Of a DNA stretch of 64,000 nt, positions 27,717-47,622 are shown piece after piece. Every line of letters begins with the position of its first letter. Within the stretch, counting starts at the first letter, position 1. Source of the DNA: Thermoanaerobaculia bacterium. Lineage in GTDB: Bacteria; Acidobacteriota; Thermoanaerobaculia; Multivoradales; Multivoraceae. The stretch is from positions 193,847 to 257,846 of the forward strand of contig JAJEHN010000008.1 of NCBI GenBank assembly GCA_022823665.1. The letters run 5' to 3'. The notes under the pieces are model-generated. The model made no database searches. It was not told the DNA's origin and was given only the letters and a program-made list of their open reading frames with translations. The position numbers were made by a program, and so were the translations under genes.

Positions 27717-27752
27717 GGGGTGCTAGCGAGCCGCCAGCCGCAGCGCGCTGTC

Positions 27753-27767
27753 GCTACAGCCTGTGGC
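27753..27767. promoter_or_regulatory. Imperfect palindrome GCTACAG-C-CTGTGGC upstream of TA module
   Basis: One mismatch; carries the same GCTACA half-site as 27780-27797. Confidence 0.35.
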
Positions 27768-27769
27768 CG

Positions 27770-27799
27770 TTGACGCGACTGTAGCCAGTTGGCTACAAT
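27770..27799 (+). promoter_or_regulatory. Promoter plus operator of TA module
   Basis: TTGACG (27770-27775)-N18-TACAAT (27794-27799); perfect palindrome TGTAGCCA-GT-TGGCTACA at 27780-27797 covers the -10. Confidence 0.65.
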
Positions 27800-28145
27800 C
27801 TCCCGTTTGATACGGGTCGTCCACTACGTCTCCGAGGACGGCAGAGACTACTTCGATGTTTGGTTTCGACGACAGTCGCGCGAGGCTCGCGCCCGCATTC
27901 AAACCCGGATCGACCGTGTGGAACTCGGCAACTTCGGAGATCACAAAAGCGTAGGAGGCGGTGTGTCGGAGCTTCGAATCGATGTCGGGCCCGGATACCG
28001 GCTCTACTTCGGTCGCGATGGCGAGACGCTCGTGATTCTGCTGGGGGGCGGCGTGAAGAAGGGCCAAGCGGCCGACATCAAGGCAGCGCGCTCGCGCTGG
28101 CAGGCGTACAAGCAGGAGAAGCGGAATGCCGGTGAAAGCTCATAG
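27789..28145 (+). CDS. RelE/HigB-like toxin (addiction module killer protein type); start may be TTG 27807
   Basis: FDVWFRRQSREARARIQTRIDRVELGNFGDHKSVGGGVSELRIDVGPGYRLYFGRDGETLVILLGGGVKKGQAADIKAA. Confidence 0.85.
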   Translation: MATISRLIRVVHYVSEDGRDYFDVWFRRQSREARARIQTRIDRVELGNFGDHKSVGGGVSELRIDVGPGYRLYFGRDGETLVILLGGGVKKGQAADIKAARSRWQAYKQEKRNAGESS

Positions 28146-28410
28146 GGCCAGTGACTACCTCAAGTCGCCTGAGGACGCGGCGGCCTATCTGAACGCGGCG
28201 CTAGAAGAGATGGGCGATGATCCGCGCCTGCTCATGAAGGCGTTTCGGAACGTGGCTGAGGCGCACGGAGGCGTATCCGCCGTTGCTCGTCACGCTGAAC
28301 TAGACCGGGTGGCGCTTTCACGCGCACTGTCGGGCCGCAGAAACCCGAGACTCGACACGGTCACGAAGGTGACCGCCGCCTGCGGCTTGAAGCTCCGGTT
28401 CTCAGCGTAG
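28126..28410 (+). CDS. HTH antitoxin (addiction module antidote type)
   Basis: DYLKSPEDAAAYLNAALEEMGDDPRLLMKAFRNVAEAHGGVSAVARHAELDRVALSRALSGRRNPRLDTVTKVTAACGLKL; overlaps toxin by 20 nt. Confidence 0.87.
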   Translation: MPVKAHRASDYLKSPEDAAAYLNAALEEMGDDPRLLMKAFRNVAEAHGGVSAVARHAELDRVALSRALSGRRNPRLDTVTKVTAACGLKLRFSA

Positions 28411-28506
28411 CCCGTCCTCCCTGACGCGCACACGCACAAAGCCGCGATCAGCCGCTCTGGCTGGGTGTAACACCGACGCAACGGGCCATTGCACGGAGCC
28501 CACCAG

Positions 28507-31500
28507 TTAGTCGTACCTCTCCGCCCGCAGTTCGAACCACTGTAGACGCCGATCTGTCTCCAGAACAGGGTCGGCCGCCACGATTTGATCGATGATGTCT
28601 GCCATATCGAAGAGACGACGCCCGCCAGGCGGCCCACAGACACGCCAAACAAGATCGAGCGTCTCCCGAGGAAACGTCTTGGCGACACCTGACGCCTTGA
28701 TTGAGTGCAGGTTCCCGCGACTCTCGTCAAACGGCAAGATGTAGTGCCTTAGTTGATCCAGCGCCTCGGGGAACGCTTTGCCAGTCGCCGCCACGAGATC
28801 AACGAAACCCTGGGTCGTCGAATCGTCGAGGAGCTTTCCTTCCTTTGGCCAGATCCGACTCAACAAGGGGCCAACCAGATCTCTCCAACTGCTGGCGGCA
28901 TCAGGATCGACCCTCTCAAGCCAGGGGAGAAGAGCTCGCAGAGCTCCGCTCCTGACGACAGAAGGGCCGTCGCGCAGGACCCGTTCACATTCCGTGAGTG
29001 TAATGCCCCAGCTAACCGACTCGTCTCGAAAGTGCGACAGCGCCGGCGCCAGAATCTTCGAAGCGACTATCGTTCCTTGCCGCTCGTTCTCACGACTCTC
29101 CATCGCGCCTTGAACAACAGGTTCCTTCAAGACAACGGAGACCGCGGGCGTGAATCCACCGTACTTCAACATTACCGTGCGTAGTGCCGAACCCTCCTCG
29201 TCGCAGCGCATGAGCCGTGCCCGAAAAGCGTCCCTCCAAGGGTCCGGCGGGAGAAGCATCAAGAAGGCAACGTTCCTAGCCAAGATCGCTCGCCCTAGCT
29301 GTCCCGCTGCGCCATCCTGGCTGACCACCTTTGCGAGCAACCGCAACTCATCGGCGGCGGGTGCCGTACGAGCCTGGTGCTTACGCTCGAACTCCCGGAC
29401 CAGACATTCCACTAACTTACCGGGAGCCGAGTTAATCGCAGCATTGAGAAGCTCCCGAGTCAGCTCAACTCCGTCGCTTGGGGACTCGGCCAAGACGTCC
29501 CAGAGGCGCTGTAACCAGACCTCAAGATCTGCAACCGCCGTCGAAGAAACCACCGAGAGCACGTCGACCAAGCCCGAGGCCATCGGCTCCAGCAGTTCGT
29601 TGGAGGTTCCGCGAAGATAGGCTAGCGCATCAACCGCCAAGGATCTGCGGTTGCTCTCCGTAGCGTCGTAGCCGAAGGCGAGTCCGTTGAGGAAGTCATT
29701 CCACAGCACACCGTGCGCGGGGGTTGTTTCCTCGTTACGCAGTAGATCGTAGGCTCCTTGAGGATCCGCCCGACAGTAGGCCCACCAACTTCGGCCTAGT
29801 TCCGGGTCGGGACTGTGAACGAGTTCTCTCGCCGCCTCAAGACGGTCTTCGGGGGCCTGTTCGGCGATCGGCTCTGCCTCTCCCATGGAAGCACGCGGCT
29901 TGTACATGTAGACGCCGAAGAAATCACGATCCTCGACTTCCCTGTCCAAGTACTCACGACGCTGCGTGATGTCGCCTAGTTCAGCCAGCCCCTTCTCGGA
30001 GAGAGCCTCCGCCTTCTCAAGCATCTTGAGCCGTAGCCAGACCGTCGTATCTCTAGAGTGAGGGCGCCAGTCGGGCTGCCCGACGTCGATGCTGAAGCGG
30101 GCGTAGTAGGTCTCACCAGTGCCACAGACTTGGTCCTCGACCTGAGAGGCAAGGGACAGCGACGCGTCACCGGCCCGGTCCCGAAGCAAGAGCGCGATCT
30201 CACGCCGAATCGTCCAGAAGTCCGCTTCAGTCAGGTCGAGTAGCGAACGCATCGCGGTATCGGCTGAGAAGAGGTCCCGATTCCGCATTGCGTGTAGGCA
30301 GAGCCGCGTACCGATTCGTCCTGGGAAGTGTCGCCAGTCTTCTACAACTCTCTTGGTGCGCTCGAAGTCGAGCTTCATGGCCCCGGGAACCGCATCGACG
30401 AGTACGCGAACCAGAAAGCTGACCCCTTCGTGATGATCGTTCTGGACGTGTTCTTCGATCGACGAAACCTCGAAGTCGTTCACGTCGTAGTCCCCCGAGA
30501 TCAACTCAAGATCGCACTCAAGCGCGAGAGCAGATCGCAGTCTCGCCGTAGCGGCTTCGAGAATCTCCAACCCTCGATCTGTCAACCCACGAAGACCGGC
30601 TACAACATCCACCGCCCAAGGGCCGGACACGGCCATCTCCGGTCGCATAGCGTCAAGTAGTCGTCTTACTGGTTCGTCTTCCTCGCCCTCACCGAACAGC
30701 TCCGAGTATCGTTCCTGGAGTACCAGCCGGGGCCCGACGTAGTTCACTGCCTCCTCAAGGTCAGCGCGCAACACGAGGCCACGCTCGAGTCGGCTCTTGA
30801 TCACGTAACCTCTGTTGTCATCCCTCACTGGCACATCGGCCAGACAAAAAAGACGCCAGATGCGAGTCCAGCAATCATCCAACTCCGCCGATGAGCGGAG
30901 TCGCCTCTCGAGGTGCTCCGTGAAGGGGCGGCCCAAACGACTTTGCCACTCACGTGCCACGTCAAGGCGCTCTGGATTCGAAGCGTCAAGCGCGATCCAA
31001 GCAGGAACAACCCATGTGGCGTCCTCGTTCGACCACAATTCCCTGTCCGAGAACGTCGTGAACCACTCTGCATCCGCTACTTCCGTGATCACAAGGGGCC
31101 AAAGGTCTGCCGGAGAGCGCAGGAGCCATCTAAGCTGCGCCAAACCGTTCCGGTCGAGATTCGTCGGCGGTGCCGCCAAGAGCTCGCGTGCTCGACGGCG
31201 CCGCCACGCTCGGGGACGCTCAACGATATCGGCCAACCGGCCCAGGCCGGCCCATAAGGGCGAATGATCGGCCTCACCACTCTCGGGGTTGAACTTACTG
31301 TAAGCAATAGGCTGTACTGCCAGGGTGTCCCAGCGCCGACGGACTTCCTTGCCGTCGCGACAGTAGGCATCAAAGGCATACACGTGATGGAGGTCGGGGA
31401 AACGTGAGCGATCAGCTCGAAGGACATTGAGGATGTATCGGACCGGAGCATCGTTCGCCCTGTACCCGACGAGCACGATCGTCCTGCAGCGGACCAGGTC

Positions 31501-32112
31501 GAAGAGGAACCGTGAGGCCCAGCCGGAACGCAGGTAGGCATCGCCGTAGTCGGCGCTCGTCAACACCAACGGAGTAGCTTCGAGAGCTAGCTCTTCATCT
31601 CTAAGCCGGCCATGAATGTGGATGATCCCGGAGAAACCGGCGCTACCGGGCGCTGGAAGCGCCTGGCCGGCGAAGCTCCCGGTCCCAGCATCGGGAGTGG
31701 TCCGAGCGGCTCTCTCAAAGAGCGTGTCGAAGTTGGTCGTTACGACCGAGATCTGGTTGTCGAGCCCACGGGACAGTCTGAGAACAATCTTGTGCTGTTC
31801 GAGAGCTGGAGGCTCCGGCACAGCCAGCAGGTCCGAGACCGTCGCCTCTACAGCGGAAGGGTCCGCCAGTTTTCGGTCGAGTGCGCCGAGAACTTCCTCG
31901 TAGCGCCCCTCGTCGAATGCCTTCTTCTCTGAGCCCTCTAGATCAACACGAAGCCTCTCGTATGTCTGGCGCACCAGCTCCTCGAAGTCCGGCAGCTGCG
32001 GAGCACTGACGCCTGCGCCGCAGAGAAACACGACTTCTCCCGCCAAGAGCGAATCAAGGAGTTCCGTGGGGAGTTCCGGCCCACCAGATGACAACTGAAT
32101 GGTCTCGGGCAT
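28507..32112 (-). CDS. SIR2-domain protein with large C-terminal region; probable anti-phage NADase-type defence protein
   Basis: VVFLCGAGVSAPQLPDFEEL, VVTTNFDTLFE, GIIHIHGRL, VLVGYRANDAPVRYIL. Confidence 0.82.
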   Translation of the reverse strand: MPETIQLSSGGPELPTELLDSLLAGEVVFLCGAGVSAPQLPDFEELVRQTYERLRVDLEGSEKKAFDEGRYEEVLGALDRKLADPSAVEATVSDLLAVPEPPALEQHKIVLRLSRGLDNQISVVTTNFDTLFERAARTTPDAGTGSFAGQALPAPGSAGFSGIIHIHGRLRDEELALEATPLVLTSADYGDAYLRSGWASRFLFDLVRCRTIVLVGYRANDAPVRYILNVLRADRSRFPDLHHVYAFDAYCRDGKEVRRRWDTLAVQPIAYSKFNPESGEADHSPLWAGLGRLADIVERPRAWRRRRARELLAAPPTNLDRNGLAQLRWLLRSPADLWPLVITEVADAEWFTTFSDRELWSNEDATWVVPAWIALDASNPERLDVAREWQSRLGRPFTEHLERRLRSSAELDDCWTRIWRLFCLADVPVRDDNRGYVIKSRLERGLVLRADLEEAVNYVGPRLVLQERYSELFGEGEEDEPVRRLLDAMRPEMAVSGPWAVDVVAGLRGLTDRGLEILEAATARLRSALALECDLELISGDYDVNDFEVSSIEEHVQNDHHEGVSFLVRVLVDAVPGAMKLDFERTKRVVEDWRHFPGRIGTRLCLHAMRNRDLFSADTAMRSLLDLTEADFWTIRREIALLLRDRAGDASLSLASQVEDQVCGTGETYYARFSIDVGQPDWRPHSRDTTVWLRLKMLEKAEALSEKGLAELGDITQRREYLDREVEDRDFFGVYMYKPRASMGEAEPIAEQAPEDRLEAARELVHSPDPELGRSWWAYCRADPQGAYDLLRNEETTPAHGVLWNDFLNGLAFGYDATESNRRSLAVDALAYLRGTSNELLEPMASGLVDVLSVVSSTAVADLEVWLQRLWDVLAESPSDGVELTRELLNAAINSAPGKLVECLVREFERKHQARTAPAADELRLLAKVVSQDGAAGQLGRAILARNVAFLMLLPPDPWRDAFRARLMRCDEEGSALRTVMLKYGGFTPAVSVVLKEPVVQGAMESRENERQGTIVASKILAPALSHFRDESVSWGITLTECERVLRDGPSVVRSGALRALLPWLERVDPDAASSWRDLVGPLLSRIWPKEGKLLDDSTTQGFVDLVAATGKAFPEALDQLRHYILPFDESRGNLHSIKASGVAKTFPRETLDLVWRVCGPPGGRRLFDMADIIDQIVAADPVLETDRRLQWFELRAERYD

Positions 32113-32169
32113 TGAGGCGCGGATCCTGCTTGTCCCTCGGATCGTGCGAGAACTTGGAGCGGAGGCGGT

Positions 32170-32187
32170 GCGCCCTCGCGAGGGCGC
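32170..32187. other. Perfect 18-bp palindrome GCGCCCTCGCGAGGGCGC
   Basis: Directly abuts the stop of the SnoaL-like gene; upstream of the SIR2 gene. Confidence 0.5.
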
Positions 32188-32703: not shown

Positions 32704-32834
32704 GGCGGCCTTCCCTTCGTGTCGACCGCGGCAATCGTCCGCCGGGCCGAAGTGAGCTGTTTCCTGAGTCGCTAGCCATCATCCTAGCCGCTCATCAGCG
32801 TCGGCTGGGCGCAACTAGTCGATCCGGGAGCAGC

Positions 32835-36498: not shown

Positions 36499-36531
36499 TC
36501 GACGCGAACACACTTGACTGCTATTGTGTTC
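36499..36531 (+). promoter_or_regulatory. Leaderless-type promoter and inverted repeat of TA module
   Basis: TCGACG (36499-36504)-N17-TATTGT (36522-36527)-N7-ATG; inverted repeat GAACACA-N12-TGTGTTC at 36506-36531. Confidence 0.5.
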
Positions 36532-36534
36532 TCC

Positions 36535-36777
36535 ATGAGCAAGACGATCACCCTGAGACTCGACCAGGCGATCTACGAGGAGTTCAAGGAGGCGGCGGCA
36601 GCCGAGAATCGGCCCTTGTCGAATCTCATTCAGACGGCGGCGCTCGCGAAGGTCCGCGAGCAACAGTTCGTCGACGACGCCGAGATGGCCGAGATCCTGG
36701 AGGACGAGTCGTTGCTCCGCCGGCTGAGGGCAGGGTCGCGCGACGCGGCTCAGCGCAAGGGCGCGTTTGTTGACTGA
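36535..36777 (+). CDS. RHH/CopG-like antitoxin
   Basis: MSKTITLRLDQAIYEEFKEAAAAENRPLSNLIQTAALAKV. Confidence 0.78.
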   Translation: MSKTITLRLDQAIYEEFKEAAAAENRPLSNLIQTAALAKVREQQFVDDAEMAEILEDESLLRRLRAGSRDAAQRKGAFVD

Positions 36778-37051
36778 CTATCGGCTGTTCGAGACGGACC
36801 AATTCGATCGCGACCTGCGCCGGCTCTCCCGTGCCGGCCATCAAGCGATCGTCGACAAGCTCAGGAAGGTCGTGTACCCGCAACTACGCCAGCATCCGCA
36901 CGCGGGCCCACACATCAGGCGCCTCAGAGGCTATGAGCCGCCGACCTGGCGCTACCGGATCGGCGCCTGGCGCTTCTTCTACGAGATCGACGAAGAGACG
37001 CGGAGCGTCTTCTTGATCGGCGCCGTTCACCGCGGCGCCGCGTATCGCTAG
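36767..37051 (+). CDS. RelE/ParE-family toxin
   Basis: YRLFETDQFDRDLRRLSRAGHQAIVDKLRKVVYPQLRQHPHAGPHIRRLRGYEPPTWRYRIGAWRFFYEID; overlaps antitoxin. Confidence 0.85.
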   Translation: MLTDYRLFETDQFDRDLRRLSRAGHQAIVDKLRKVVYPQLRQHPHAGPHIRRLRGYEPPTWRYRIGAWRFFYEIDEETRSVFLIGAVHRGAAYR

Positions 37052-41107: not shown

Positions 41108-41273
41108 CGACGGACACGTCGTGCGCGGCCCGCATCGTCGTTGATACTCTCCCCGGCATCGCGTGAGTCCGGCCCCGACCCACACCGTCGTACACGCTGC
41201 GCGGTCATCAAGTGCAGCGAGGCGAGACTTGAAGGAGCAGCCCGATGGCGTTCAGGCAGAGGCAGCGGTCGCG

Positions 41274-41570
41274 ATGATGGGTGGCAATCAACACACGCCG
41301 GCAACGAAGCGCGACCTCGCTTCGGTTGAGAGTTCACTCACGCACGATTTCGAGAATCTCCGGACCGAACTCCGGCAGGACGTCGCGCAACTCCGGACCG
41401 ACGCCATACTGCAGGACGTGCGGCACCAGTTCGAGAGCACCCGCCGCGAGTTCGCCGGCCTACTGGGCGACCTGCGACGAGATCTGAGGACCATCAAGTG
41501 GGTGCTGGCGGCAGTGCTCGCCATCATGGTGTCGATCACGGTCGGCACTATCGCTCTTGCTCTCAGTTGA
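41274..41570 (+). CDS. Small coiled-coil protein with C-terminal TM helix (DUF1640/CCDC90-like)
   Basis: TKRDLASVESSLTHDFENLRTELRQDVAQLRTDAILQDVRHQFESTRREFAGLLGDLRRDLRTIKWVLAAVLAIMVSITVGTIALAL. Confidence 0.65.
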   Translation: MMGGNQHTPATKRDLASVESSLTHDFENLRTELRQDVAQLRTDAILQDVRHQFESTRREFAGLLGDLRRDLRTIKWVLAAVLAIMVSITVGTIALALS

Positions 41571-41571
41571 G

Positions 41572-41615
41572 TGGAAGCTCCTCGCGGCTGATCGCGTCGC
41601 CACGCCCCGCCTCGA
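41572..41615 (+). repeat. 44-bp direct repeat, right copy
   Basis: tggaagctcctcgcggctgatcgcgtcgccacgccccgcctcga, starting just after the stop of 41274-41570. Confidence 0.75.
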
Positions 41616-41799
41616 AGACTCGCGGCTCGCCAGACTCCTGAAGCAAAGGAGCCCGCGACGCCGGCCAAGAGAGTTCCCGCACGGCGCCGCAGCTCAGGCT
41701 CAGCACCATGTAGAAGAAGTTCACACGCCGCCGAGTCGGTCGGCGCAACCTCCTCTCTCGCCGGGCCGTAGGAAGACGGCCCCTTCGTGGGACTGCAGG

Positions 41800-43440
41800 T
41801 CAGAGGCCCGTGAGCGTGACGATGCAGCACAACTCCGCCACGCCGAAGAGGAGCGCGTCCAAGAGTCCGCGAACCGATGTCACGACCGCCAAGGCCTCGC
41901 CGAGAAACAGGGCAACGAGGCCCGTCGACGCAAGCAGAATCTGCAAGGAGGCGCCCAACCAAGCGGGCCACTGGACGCCCTTCGGAGTCGTAAAGTCCTC
42001 TCGACGAAGCCACCACTTGCCGAGATAGTGGCCCACATCCCGTCGCGCGCTGCGCGCCTTCAGGTAGGCGCCGTGAGCAATGAACGCCCAGCGGTTGCCG
42101 CTGAAGCGGAACACCTCGGGCCGGAGCTTCGCCTTCGCTGCCGCTTCATTCCCCCTGATCGCGCGCAATGCGCCTGAGATCGGGTCGAACGGGCTGCAGA
42201 CGTTGAGCCATCGAAAACCCTTGGCGAACACATCGTTCTTGTTCAGCATGACCATGTGGGGCCACAGGTCGACGAAAACGTGAAGCGGCGAACCGTAGGT
42301 CACGAAGCCTCCCAAGTCTCTGAACAACTCCTCGCGCGACAGAGCGTCCGTCGGCTCCAACCAGTCCGGTCTTCTCGGCCACATGTTCTCCGTGTCGTCG
42401 TCCTCCCGCTGCGTCTTGAACCGCGGGTCAAGCTGGTCCCAGTGCCCCTCTTCGAGGTAGTTCGGCAGGACGTAGTCCGGCTCCATGAGTCCGTTGAACG
42501 CAACGACGCTGCCGAGACTGTGCGCCATCACGTACCACTGGTCGTAGTCGCGCTCCGCCATCGACACCATCTTCTGCACCATGCGGCGGCTGATCGGAAC
42601 CCGCGACGGCAGCCCCATGTCGGGACCGCTTCCAGTGTCCGCCCGCGCTCCCTCGGTGTAGATCTGCACATCGCCAAAGGACTCGAGCAACACTACGGGA
42701 GAGGGCGCGAAGCCCCGCAGAAGACGGCGGAGCAAGCCCCACGTGAAAGCAACGAGAATCGCCAGGCTCGAGAAGCAGCCGAGGACGAAGAACTGAGGTA
42801 GGCGGCGCATGCCCGAGCGGGGAGACTCCAACTCCACGAGACCGCCATTCCGGGCTCGATTCCTCCAAAGCCTGTTATCGAACCTTCCGGTTCTGGCCCG
42901 GAAGCGGAGGAAGGGCGCGCGCACGACCCACCAAAGGAATCTCCCCCAGTAGCGCAACCCCGTCCGCACCCCCAGGTCTGCCCACCAGACTTCGTGGAAA
43001 TGAAGATCCACCGTTTCGTTCTGGTTCCCGCCCACCTGAACGCGCACGACGATCCGACGACCACCCTCGGCCGCACGAGCCTCCGTACCATCGCGGTCGC
43101 CCTTTTGCCCTGCCGCCGGGTCGGCAGGCCTCGGGCGTTCAGGCTCCTGGCATACGTCACGTACCTCGTAGTCGGTTCCCCAGCTCGCGATCAGGCTGCG
43201 CACCACTTTCTCCACGTGGGCACCCGGCTTCTGCTCGCCCATGCCATGCACGAGCAGTACGCCGAGTTCGCGGCGGGCCGAAGCGAAGGCGTTGCCATCC
43301 ACGCCGCCGACCGTGCCGCCGTCCTTGTCTGCTGCACCTGGATCCGTCATTCCGAATTCCCTTCCGGTCCCGATGGTGGCCTCTCCGCCCTCCAAAGCTC
43401 CCTTCCTCTTCACGGTCATGACCTCAAAGGCCGCCGCCAC
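41800..43440 (-). CDS. Membrane-associated alpha/beta hydrolase (lipase-like)
   Basis: GVLLVHGMGEQKPG, YVMAHSLGSVVAFNGL nucleophile elbow, VTYGSPL; several hydrophobic segments. Confidence 0.68.
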   Translation of the reverse strand: MAAAFEVMTVKRKGALEGGEATIGTGREFGMTDPGAADKDGGTVGGVDGNAFASARRELGVLLVHGMGEQKPGAHVEKVVRSLIASWGTDYEVRDVCQEPERPRPADPAAGQKGDRDGTEARAAEGGRRIVVRVQVGGNQNETVDLHFHEVWWADLGVRTGLRYWGRFLWWVVRAPFLRFRARTGRFDNRLWRNRARNGGLVELESPRSGMRRLPQFFVLGCFSSLAILVAFTWGLLRRLLRGFAPSPVVLLESFGDVQIYTEGARADTGSGPDMGLPSRVPISRRMVQKMVSMAERDYDQWYVMAHSLGSVVAFNGLMEPDYVLPNYLEEGHWDQLDPRFKTQREDDDTENMWPRRPDWLEPTDALSREELFRDLGGFVTYGSPLHVFVDLWPHMVMLNKNDVFAKGFRWLNVCSPFDPISGALRAIRGNEAAAKAKLRPEVFRFSGNRWAFIAHGAYLKARSARRDVGHYLGKWWLRREDFTTPKGVQWPAWLGASLQILLASTGLVALFLGEALAVVTSVRGLLDALLFGVAELCCIVTLTGL

Positions 43441-43816
43441 CCCTCCGAAGCAAGGACCGTCGGCTAGCTCCCCCCTCCCGACATTCGAAATCCCTCGGAC
43501 ACCCGTATGCGAAGCGGCAGGCCAGCGATCCGATTCCGCGCGCTTGGACTAGGCCATATCCGGCCAGCGCAACTCCGCCCGTTTCCCCCTTCGGGATCGA
43601 TCCCGCAACACCGGAAGAGACCGCGCAGCGCCACCGTTCCCTCGACCCTTCGTGCACCGCCTGCACCACAGGTGTTGCCGGAATCTCAGTCCGCAGGCAA
43701 GCTGTAACGGAGGCCGCGGAAAGGCCGCCAACCAGGAAAACCACTGAGACCTTCAGCGTAGAGAAGCGCTTGGGACACAACAACCACCTGCCGGAATGAC
43801 GCCGCACACTCCCCAC
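43424..43816 (-). CDS. Possible small lipoprotein
   Basis: LKVSVVFLVGGLSAASVTAC lipobox-like; ERWRC motif also in 45505-45939; overlaps next gene by 17 nt. Confidence 0.35.
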   Translation of the reverse strand: MGSVRRHSGRWLLCPKRFSTLKVSVVFLVGGLSAASVTACLRTEIPATPVVQAVHEGSRERWRCAVSSGVAGSIPKGETGGVALAGYGLVQARGIGSLACRFAYGCPRDFECREGGASRRSLLRRGGGGL

Positions 43817-43829
43817 TTCCCCAGACTCC

Positions 43830-44258
43830 TTAGACGAGAGAGAGAAGCTCGTTGAGTATCTTCAGCGCCTTCTTGATCCAGTCGGGCAGATCGAGGATCT
43901 GCTCAATAGAGTCCTTGACGGTCGCTGCATCGCCAAGGGCCTTGCCGGTATCACTATTCGAGTCCTCGCCATGCATGGCGTTAAAGAGCTTCATCTCCTG
44001 AATCAGCAAATCGTGAACCGCCTTCCCCTCTCGGGACGGGTTCCCAAACTCGCTCAGAGCGCGGCCTACCTCAGCTAGCGCTTCAGGAGAGCCGAGCAGA
44101 GAGAAGAGGCTCTCCGCCATTCCAGCCGCGATAGACTTGGGCTGCTCCGGGAGGTCCGCCACCCTCTTTTCGACTATACGGCGAACGTTGCAAAGAAATA
44201 GACGGTACGCTTCTGACACGTACCCCTTCTGCTCTTTTGGTGCGTCTTGCTCCGGCAC
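43830..44258 (-). CDS. Hypothetical 142-aa helical protein
   Basis: Complete ORF, co-directional with neighbours: KGYVSEAYRLFLCNVRRIVEKRVADLPEQPKSIAAGMAESLFSLLGSPEALAEVGRALSEF. Confidence 0.55.
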   Translation of the reverse strand: MPEQDAPKEQKGYVSEAYRLFLCNVRRIVEKRVADLPEQPKSIAAGMAESLFSLLGSPEALAEVGRALSEFGNPSREGKAVHDLLIQEMKLFNAMHGEDSNSDTGKALGDAATVKDSIEQILDLPDWIKKALKILNELLSLV

Positions 44259-44343
44259 TTGTCTTCTCCTCTTGCGGCCTTCCGTCTTCCCAGGGAACCG
44301 AGCAGCCCCCTCGGGTTCCGACGGCCGGCAATTGAATCCTCCC

Positions 44344-44946
44344 CTAGTAGACCATCGTCAGCGGGATCTCCCGACCAAGGGTCCCCTTCTTGAGGGGTAG
44401 TTGCCTCGATGACGAAAAGTCGGCCGGTACGTATTCGTTTGATGGTCTGCGACTCCCGAGTAAACCCAGCGCCTGGTAGGCTTCCGCCACGAGTTCGCTG
44501 CAAAAGACGCTACTCAGATCTTCTTCGTTCCTACCGAACGGTCCGTCGTAGGCAGCCTTGAGGAGTTCTATCTTGTCCTTCTCGTACGGGCGGGTGCGAA
44601 GGTCTTCGCGAAGCCTCCAGAGGCGGCTGTAGACGCCTTCTTGGAGGTCCGCATCTTGGAGGCGGCGAACGGCGACAGAGCCTCGGTACGTGATGAGGCG
44701 GTCACTTAGCGGAACGAGTTGTACACCTTTCCGGACTTGGCCGGAATCGAGATCACGAAGGCGCGTACCCTGCTTGGTCGATTCCCACACTGAGACGAGC
44801 CTGCAGTCGGGCAGGTACACGACCATCCCCACATGGGACCATCGGTTGCTCGTGGCAAGCTTGATGACAGTACTGATCGCGGCGCTACCCGAGTACAGAA
44901 CGATATCTCCAGTACGCAGTTCGTCTCGAATGGCGTCGTAGTTCAC
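44344..44946 (-). CDS. YiiX-like circularly permuted NlpC/P60 (papain-fold) protein
   Basis: LRTGDIVLYSG, NRWSHVGMVVYL (His) preceding SVFCSELVAEAYQALG (Cys). Confidence 0.75.
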   Translation of the reverse strand: MNYDAIRDELRTGDIVLYSGSAAISTVIKLATSNRWSHVGMVVYLPDCRLVSVWESTKQGTRLRDLDSGQVRKGVQLVPLSDRLITYRGSVAVRRLQDADLQEGVYSRLWRLREDLRTRPYEKDKIELLKAAYDGPFGRNEEDLSSVFCSELVAEAYQALGLLGSRRPSNEYVPADFSSSRQLPLKKGTLGREIPLTMVY

Positions 44947-45067
44947 CGGTGTGCCCGCAGGGATAGGACCTTGAGGATTGGGGTGCTTTCACTTGACAGT
45001 CGGCAAGGGGAAGACCGGTGCTCCCCGTTCGCCTCTGGTCCTATGCCAACGTTCATCGCAGTCGGCG

Positions 45068-45436
45068 TCAAGCCGTTTTCTGGAGCCGCCGCGGATCACT
45101 GAGCGTCAGCCGGAGCTTCGAACGTGAGCAGGTAGTCGGCACCGTCACCAGTGAAGCGGTGCTCGATATCGCCTTGCCCTCATGCGCGGCCCGAGCGTAG
45201 GTCCGACCCAGATGATCGTCGGCGGCCAGCCAGCCAGTATCCTCATAGTAGAGGTCGATTCGGGCCTTGCTTTGGAAGCTGACCGGGCGGGTGCCCACAA
45301 AGTCGACCGTGTCCCCGTCGTTCATTAACTGCGGTCCCCAACGACGTTTTCCCTTGACGACGAGGTATGCCTCGTCGGCACCCGTCCAATCCTCGGTCTT
45401 CCGGCAGTGCAGCGAGGCGAGCGGGAGTTGCGGCAT
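45068..45436 (-). CDS. Hypothetical small beta-rich protein
   Basis: LHCRKTEDWTGADEAYLVVKGKRRWGPQLMNDGDTVDFVGTRPVSFQSKARIDLYYEDTG. Confidence 0.55.
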   Translation of the reverse strand: MPQLPLASLHCRKTEDWTGADEAYLVVKGKRRWGPQLMNDGDTVDFVGTRPVSFQSKARIDLYYEDTGWLAADDHLGRTYARAAHEGKAISSTASLVTVPTTCSRSKLRLTLSDPRRLQKTA

Positions 45437-45504
45437 ACGTGGGACCTCCTTGTTCTGAGACGGTTCGAGTCCGCGAGGCTTCGCGCTCTAGCGGGACCCG
45501 ACCA

Positions 45505-45939
45505 CTACCGGCCAGGCCGCGAGCAGGAGCACTCGTCGTCCTTCTCGAGTTCGTAGTGGTCCGGATGGCCTGTGTTGCACGGCCAGCCTCCCGCTAGCTG
45601 AGCCTTGGCTCGACTGCAGACCCAACCCCGGGAGCCAGCGTCCTCGTACCAGGCTGTGCCGGAGTCGATCAACTCGGTACGTGCTCCGGTATCGTCATCC
45701 GTGTCGAAGCAGCGCCAACGGACCTCGCAGCGCCAGCGTTCCTCCTGTGAAGACCGGCCGGGGAACGGCACCGGGCTGAACAGGGGGACTCGCGCGGAGT
45801 CCGCGGTTCGGAGTTCTTCCTGCGGCGCGCCCTGCCAAGGCGGGTCAGGCACACCGACCTCTCGCAGCCCCGTCCCCGCACACCCTGCCAGAAACACGAC
45901 GCTCAACCCTGTGGCGATCAGCTGTCTCCTCCGCAACAA
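45505..45939 (-). CDS. Cys-rich lipoprotein of unknown function
   Basis: MLRRRQLIATGLSVVFLAGCAG lipobox; WRCEVRWRCF. Confidence 0.6.
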   Translation of the reverse strand: MLRRRQLIATGLSVVFLAGCAGTGLREVGVPDPPWQGAPQEELRTADSARVPLFSPVPFPGRSSQEERWRCEVRWRCFDTDDDTGARTELIDSGTAWYEDAGSRGWVCSRAKAQLAGGWPCNTGHPDHYELEKDDECSCSRPGR

Positions 45940-46147
45940 TCAGGCCCCTCCTCGCTTGCCAATAGAAGGAATCTAGCCCCTCGCAGGCCTTCTTGTCCCC
46001 GGCAGTTTTGCCGGGGACTACCCAAGTTCTCCAACCCCCAAAGCCGACGACAACCAAAACGGCCCACATCCGAGACGACGACGCTCTCGGATGACCAGCC
46101 CAGGGCTACAGGGGCTCCCGTATCGTCCAGAGGGAGCGAAGCAACCT

Positions 46148-46813
46148 TCAGGCGAACTCGGTCGCCGCCAACACCAGCCGCACCAGGTCGACTTGCCGGC
46201 GGACGCCCACCTTGGCGTAGATCTGCTCCAGGAGCCAGTAGACGGAGCGCTTCTGCCGGCCCGTGCTCGCTGCAATCTCGGCGACGCTCTTGCCTTGCGC
46301 CAACCAACAGGCGACCTCACTCTCCGCAGGTGTGAGGCCGAACGCGGTAGCCACATGACGTGGGTCGATGGGAGGGGGAAGCGATGGATCGACAATCAGC
46401 ACCAGTGCCGCGGCCCGCCGGACGATGAGGTCCAGTTCTCGGACAACCGTGGGCTTGACGTGGACCATGAGGCGCCGGCGTCCGGGCTGGCGGCTGAGCG
46501 ACATCGAGCCGCCAACAGAGATGGAGCCGGGTTGGGGCACGGCGTTGGCCAACAACTGTTCGAGACCCATTCGATCGGCCGGCGTGCTCGCGGAGAGAGT
46601 CCCACCACGGTCAGACAAACCGTCGCCGCGCCGCAGGACTTCACGGGCGAGGTCATTCGCCGCAATGATCCGCTGCCACCGGTCGAGGTGAATGACACCC
46701 AGCCGTTGGGAGTCAAGGAGTTGACTCAAGGAGGCGCCGAGCGCCCCGGCGTCCGCCAGCGCCTGACGCACCCAGACGAATTGCCGAACGTGGGGCACAA
46801 CTCGCTCGATCAT
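46148..46813 (-). CDS. LuxR-family regulator, C-terminal part (frame split at G9 tract)
   Basis: FGLTPAESEVACWLAQGKSVAEIAASTGRQKRSVYWLLEQIYAKVGVRRQVDLVRLVL is a LuxR HTH. Confidence 0.8.
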   Translation of the reverse strand: MIERVVPHVRQFVWVRQALADAGALGASLSQLLDSQRLGVIHLDRWQRIIAANDLAREVLRRGDGLSDRGGTLSASTPADRMGLEQLLANAVPQPGSISVGGSMSLSRQPGRRRLMVHVKPTVVRELDLIVRRAAALVLIVDPSLPPPIDPRHVATAFGLTPAESEVACWLAQGKSVAEIAASTGRQKRSVYWLLEQIYAKVGVRRQVDLVRLVLAATEFA

Positions 46814-47291
46814 CTCGATCTGACTGGACGACCAGGCGCCACCCCCCCCCTACCGGGTCGCCGATCACCCACGTGAAGTGCGAGTAGCCCTCCGGCCCGT
46901 CAAGGCGCACGATCAGGGCCTTCTGGGAGAGCGTCCGGACGGAGAATTCGTTGTACGTCTCTGAGGTCTTCAGTTCCTCCTTGGTATAGAGGTCTACCAG
47001 TCGCCTCAAACGGCCATACGGTTGTTGGCGGGACCGCGGCACCATTTCATCTTTACGGTAGTAGGTCTCAAGGTACTCTCGCTCCAGATCCTCGCGGCGT
47101 TCTCCCCGGTGGTAGAGCCCGACCGCGTAGATTCGCGAATCCTCTTCCGGACCTTCAATGATCCAGAGGGCGCTGCCCCTTGCACCGCAAGCCTCCTCGA
47201 TCAGGGTCGAGGCGCGGGGCCAATGAGCGCCGTCGAACGCGGCACGGTCCAAGGAAGCGAGGATGCGTTCGAACTTTCCCAGTTCGCTCAC
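46713..47291 (-). CDS. LuxR-family regulator, N-terminal part (frame split); likely GTG start at 47291
   Basis: VSELGKFERILASLDRAAFDGAHWPRASTLIEEACGARGSALWIIEG...FTWVIGDPVGGG; joins 46148-46813 if one G is removed. Confidence 0.65.
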   Translation of the reverse strand: MSELGKFERILASLDRAAFDGAHWPRASTLIEEACGARGSALWIIEGPEEDSRIYAVGLYHRGERREDLEREYLETYYRKDEMVPRSRQQPYGRLRRLVDLYTKEELKTSETYNEFSVRTLSQKALIVRLDGPEGYSHFTWVIGDPVGGGWRLVVQSDRDDRASCAPRSAIRLGASGAGGRRGARRLLESTP

Positions 47292-47622
47292 AGCGGACCC
47301 AAGCAGCTGCTCACCGACATGTACGCACCGGAGACGAGCAAGTAGAAAAAGGTGCCTTTCTACTCCGTGCGGTTCCAGCACGATAGGCGTGCAGCCGCCA
47401 CCTGCGTTGAGAGCACGGCACCCATACCGTCACCTGCCCAGATGCGAGTTGAGCCAACTACTGAGGAGTTTGAACCACAGGACGGCTCTACGCGCCGGTA
47501 GAATTGCCGGGGCTCTCGTGACGAACAGCGTCGCCGCTCCAGGACCGGAGCGAGCAACCGCCGCATGTGGACAAACAACCTGCGGTTGCTTGATGTTCCG
47601 GCGTTGGTCTGCAGGGAGCGGA

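Follow-up and report, generated by a model that had tools for sequence, protein, structure and literature searches.

The window analysed here, a stretch of 64,000 nucleotides from a Thermoanaerobaculia bacterium, carries a real, intact and horizontally acquired gene for a divergent Dsr1-like sirtuin, for which we infer a role in defence. The reading frame that the original prediction had delimited was recovered exactly, on the minus strand (Table 1); it begins with ATG and runs through 1201 codons without interruption, which rules out a dead gene for the window copy. The proposal of a candidate anti-phage defence sirtuin is supported as a candidate; the predicted NADase residues are intact, and the composition is foreign.

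Table 1. Coordinates of the SIR2-domain gene, its predicted modules and the surrounding insert in the window
Feature	Position	Strand	Basis or remark
SIR2-domain gene, divergent Dsr1-like protein, 1201 aa	28507..32112	-	ORF; Pfam SIR2_2; PADLOC Dsr1; NCBIfam Dsr1
SIR2 domain of NADase type at the N-terminus, residues 1-295, with Asn127 and His167 as predicted catalytic residues	31228..32112	-	Pfam; phmmer alignment; AlphaFold model; alignment
Middle helical-solenoid module, ~residues 320-885	29458..31155	-	Borders are gene-to-gene switch points in some relatives; model; PADLOC Dsr1 match
C-terminal helical-solenoid module, ~residues 886-1201, putative sensor	28510..29457	-	Split relatives; model; hhalign with Dsr1
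RelE/ParE (Gp49/HigB-like) toxin, TIGR02683, PF05973	27789..28145	+	Probably not part of the SIR2 system; absent at relatives' loci
HTH antitoxin, TIGR02684 / PF21716	28126..28410	+	Probably not part of the SIR2 system; absent at relatives' loci
Variable insert, 4.47 kb, carrying exactly the toxin-antitoxin pair and the SIR2 gene	27718..32184		Comparison with G013; low GC3

Relationship to Dsr1

Regarding the catalytic domain, Pfam assigns residues 121-268 to SIR2_2 (PF13289) with E=1.4e-17, and the complete motif set noticed at the outset (GAGVS, TTNFD, IHIHG and GYRANDAPV) is found in the protein. Alignment of 69 full-length proteins revealed that N127 and H167 are unchanged in all 69, as are T125, T126, F128, G168, G216, Y217 and D221. 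The phmmer alignment pairs N127 and H167 with N133 and H171 of DSR2, whose mutation impairs or abolishes NADase activity (PMC10981675, PMC11087589).

The C-terminal ~900 residues had been described as unknown, a description that no longer holds. The whole protein matches the PADLOC Dsr1 model with E=1.7e-85, and the C-terminal 901 residues alone match it colinearly over model positions 383-1232 of 1248 (E=9.2e-32); in this region the model is matched by all 13 clade members tested. In an independent profile-profile comparison, hhalign aligned 765 columns of the C-terminus of the clade to its counterpart in Dsr1 proper, with 18% identity (E=2.3e-38). BLASTP against an E. coli plasmid protein annotated as Dsr1 gave 34% identity in the SIR2 domain; in the C-terminal region, 771 columns were aligned at 20% identity (E=7e-23). 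The PADLOC, hhalign and BLASTP matches of the C-terminus therefore identify the window protein as a full-length relative of Dsr1, and, judged by sequence comparison, its C-terminal region is a remote colinear homologue of that of Dsr1. The suggestion that this region may be unlike those of characterised defence-associated sirtuins accordingly fails for Dsr1; it stands for the sequence of DSR2, whose fold is not specifically alike either.

The window protein and Dsr1 (NF041818; PADLOC PDLC04167/PDLC02183) share their architecture and have a similar length (1201 versus ~1263 residues), with an N-terminal SIR2 domain that is 33-34% identical and colinear, remotely homologous C-terminal regions that are 17-20% identical. 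The protein also has the features of the broad Dsr1-like superfamily, namely SIR2_2 with Asn and His and a colinear homologous C-terminus. However, its score against the NCBIfam Dsr1 model NF041818 is 367.7 bits (E=1.3e-109), which is below the curated equivalog cut-off of 1400 bits for Dsr1 sensu stricto; it is therefore assigned to a divergent Dsr1-like clade and not to Dsr1 in the strict sense. A tree of the 69 proteins, a quick one that does not resolve the deep branching order, places the window protein in a separate, fully supported clade of 27 members and Dsr1 proper in another. The plasmid members of the window clade also differ from Dsr1 in being annotated just as "SIR2 family protein". 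A housekeeping family in the C-terminal region, which the original prediction had named as counter-evidence, was sought and not found: there is no Pfam family on this region in the window protein or 12 relatives, and no solved structure is matched by sequence.

Predicted structure, modules and proposed function

An AlphaFold2 model of the window protein, computed from 41 aligned window and locus sequences, has a mean pLDDT of 89 and a pTM of 0.69. It consists of the SIR2 domain and, from residue 283 onwards, helices that follow one another almost without a break up to the C-terminal end, bearing out the mostly helical character foreseen for the ~900-residue region. A Foldseek search of the PDB with the whole model revealed that the best matches are all DSR2 structures (8wy8, 8z18 and others; E to 1e-9), with a low global TM of 0.23-0.28 and a TM of 0.72 for the SIR2 domain alone. 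When the C-terminal 901 residues were modelled separately (pLDDT 90), the matches were weak (E ~1e-4) and fell on generic HEAT-repeat solenoids (CAND1, SF3b and importins), and DSR2 was not among the 50 best. The match of the whole model to DSR2 therefore rests mainly on SIR2, and a DSR2-like sensor fold was not confirmed once the SIR2 domain was omitted. Searched against PDB sequences, the C-terminal profile matched no solved structure and no DSR2 chain; the same search with E. coli Dsr1 matched only the SIR2 domains of other proteins and no Dsr1 structure. As modelled, the putative sensor forms a HEAT-like solenoid to which no solved structure is specifically related.

Among known systems, DSR2 of Bacillus subtilis is the best fold match of the whole model of the window protein, and both have a SIR2 NADase-type domain with the Asn/His pair, followed by a helical middle domain and a C-terminal solenoid that are predicted in the window protein, whereas sequence homology is confined to SIR2 (phmmer; C-terminal profile against the PDB) and the window protein is ~200 residues longer. 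ThsA of Thoeris, KomC and other SIR2_2 effectors have the SIR2_2 domain in common with the window protein, which differs from them in being one large protein that ends in a HEAT-like region and whose gene has no conserved partner.

The borders of the modules were indicated by relatives in which the protein is split. At six loci in Bradyrhizobium, Hyphomicrobium and a Xanthobacteraceae genome, it is encoded by three consecutive ORFs for SIR2 (~315 aa), middle (~578 aa) and C-terminal (~318 aa) proteins, and at three further loci, one of them cut by a contig end, by two ORFs for SIR2 and the rest. The junctions are overlapping stop-start sites of the ATGA/GTGA type at the same places across genomes, and this conservation argues for real, translationally coupled genes instead of sequencing errors. 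The split operons would thus define three modules, SIR2, middle and C-terminal, comparable to the Sir2-MID-CTD plan of DSR2 (PMC10981675). It is conceivable, albeit doubtful, that the window clade is a functionally distinct third type of defence-associated sirtuin with the same SIR2 effector and a trigger different from those of Dsr1 and DSR2, in a wider Dsr1-like group that includes Hyphomicrobiales operons with effector and sensor as separate subunits.

We know of no experiment on the window clade. In DSR2, the CTD senses the phage tail tube and Sir2 is activated in a tetramer (PMC10981675). The anti-phage activity of Dsr1 is ascribed to its SIR2 domain (PMC10973363), and according to a review Dsr1 inhibits phage without cell death (PMC10952713). 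By analogy with DSR2 and Dsr1, the most likely function of the window protein would be NAD+ depletion in response to a phage component. The ~900-residue HEAT-like alpha-solenoid, comprising the middle and C-terminal modules, would sense a component of the invading phage, in all likelihood a protein; binding of this component would bring the SIR2 domain at the N-terminus, probably as part of an oligomer, into an active NADase state; and the active SIR2 domain would cleave NAD+ via Asn127 and His167, so that phage multiplication would halt. We give a probability of roughly 80% to the window protein being a single-gene Dsr1-like anti-phage defence, with NADase activity, oligomerisation, a phage trigger and protection as the properties that we infer.

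Genomic context and alternative readings

Relatives in genome contigs were not found with a single-sequence query, and an alignment query was needed. Close full-length relatives (~35-51% identity) occur in MAGs and isolates of Nitrospinota, Entotheonella, Bacteroidota, Rhodothermota and many Proteobacteria and are also borne on plasmids, among them pNGR234a and those of Burkholderia cepacia; remoter relatives occur in Chloroflexota, Gemmatimonadota, Myxococcota and others. There were no relatives in phage genome records. A partner gene conserved in the flanks of the relatives was sought, and none is common; the flanks repeatedly contain pieces of split SIR2 genes, ABC ATPases, transposases, recombinases, repABC and restriction genes. 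Defence genes are frequent near the relatives and include HamAB of Hachiman, restriction genes of types IIG and I, a TIR protein and proteins of the DISARM and AbiJ/AbiE types. PADLOC matched 112 models among 106 neighbour proteins of relatives versus 2 models among the 33 other window genes, a comparison that serves as a rough control because several models can match one protein. The window is not a classical defence island, as the matches of its 33 other genes are mad3 and mad8 only.

The plasmid-borne relatives bear on an anti-phage role. Many relatives are plasmid-borne (35 of the 73 plasmid records are predicted to be conjugative), and three lie directly downstream of repABC, which would suit a protein directed mainly against plasmids or other mobile elements, in which the solenoid would recognise a replicon entering the cell, or a protein of that replicon, and SIR2 would deplete NAD+. 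Nevertheless, an anti-phage role has been described for Dsr1, the closest tested relative (PMC10973363, PMC10952713), the copy in the window lies on the chromosome without adjoining plasmid genes, and defence genes travel on plasmids anyway. We thus consider the anti-plasmid reading unlikely and retain anti-phage defence as the preferred one.

The horizontal acquisition of the gene was revealed by comparison within the genus. In the same-genus genome G013, the amidohydrolase and SnoaL-like genes of the flanks are adjacent, with 34 unrelated bases between the flanks; homology to the window ends at 27717 and restarts at 32185, thus defining the insert. Codon use less GC-biased than that of the neighbours had been noticed, and it was confirmed by a GC3 of 0.67 for the SIR2 gene and 0.71-0.72 for the toxin-antitoxin genes versus 0.86-0.93 for most long neighbours, and by a regional GC of 60% versus 67-69%. 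As the insert is missing from the sister species, its foreign origin is supported independently of composition. No convincing repeats, direct or inverted, were found at the borders of the insert, and there is no integrase. In G003, another species of the genus, a TonB-dependent receptor gene (L111 4626-7223) lies between the amidohydrolase gene and the gene ending at 32834 in place of the toxin-antitoxin pair and the SIR2 gene, suggesting a variable site. Matches to the SIR2 protein occur in 5 of 197 related genomes and, within the genus, only in G000, G001 and G016, the last being a 76-residue stretch. The copy in G001 (L112 and L113) is broken after ~codon 291, where it meets a sequence whose terminus, TGCCCCGGTTTCGTGGAC, is present at both contig breaks; the rest of the gene carries frameshifts. 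The interrupting sequence looks like an IS3-type element, as it begins a reading frame that we read as OrfA-like. The gene is therefore inserted in the window species, lacking at the empty site of G013 and broken in G001. The window lineage is probably an Acidobacteria sponge symbiont, on the basis of the prefix of a same-genus MAG and a demosponge MAG study (PMC8163846). Elsewhere in the window, a second lower-GC stretch (61-65%) at 41163-47381 contains several orphan genes, a C92-type amidase (44344-44946) and a LuxR-type regulator (46148-46813).

The HigBA-like pair on the insert was as predicted: the toxin scored 105.8 bits against TIGR02683 (cut-off 62.85) and the antitoxin 63.1 bits against TIGR02684 (cut-off 53.7), and the pair converges on the SIR2 gene across a gap of exactly 96 bp. 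By both cut-offs it is an ordinary member of the HI1419/HI1420-type type II toxin-antitoxin systems (HigBA-like). It had been noted as lying next to the SIR2 gene, with which it shares the insert. That the two form one two-part system, in which the pair guards or regulates the SIR2 effector, would agree with their being the sole content of this 4.47-kb insert and with their common low GC3. However, a survey of 89 other SIR2 loci revealed no significant homologue of the pair in their neighbourhood, a protein query found homologues elsewhere in the genus without the SIR2 gene, and the convergent orientation precludes co-transcription. The two-part system was therefore set aside as very improbable, and the pair, most likely a bystander, probably lies next to the SIR2 gene incidentally and on present evidence stands outside the SIR2 system. 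At 27770-27806, a promoter-like TTGACG-18-TACAAT overlaps a palindrome, TGTAGCCA-GT-TGGCTACA (27780-27797), which is possibly the autoregulatory operator of the pair, and the true start of the toxin may be a TTG near 27806 instead of 27789. Another toxin-antitoxin pair, a weak RHH antitoxin match with a ParE toxin (PF05016), is located at 36514-37051.

Finally, a housekeeping or regulatory sirtuin (a deacetylase or an enzyme of NAD metabolism) with a scaffold domain is hardly credible, given the SIR2_2 subfamily, the few carriers in the genus and phylum, the location on an insert and the full-length homology to Dsr1, even though the SIR2 fold includes deacetylases and the solenoid, taken by itself, looks like a generic HEAT scaffold.

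The preferred reading as a Dsr1-like defence would widen the range of anti-phage sirtuins of the Dsr1 kind to include many phyla and probable symbionts of marine sponges, where they stand under "SIR2 family protein" labels. The separateness of the clade and the split operons are the parts that specialists might not expect. A confident model now covers a sensor region without any solved structure among its relatives, and natural borders between the domains can be read from the split operons; together, the model and the operons make sensor recognition of the Dsr1 type more directly testable.
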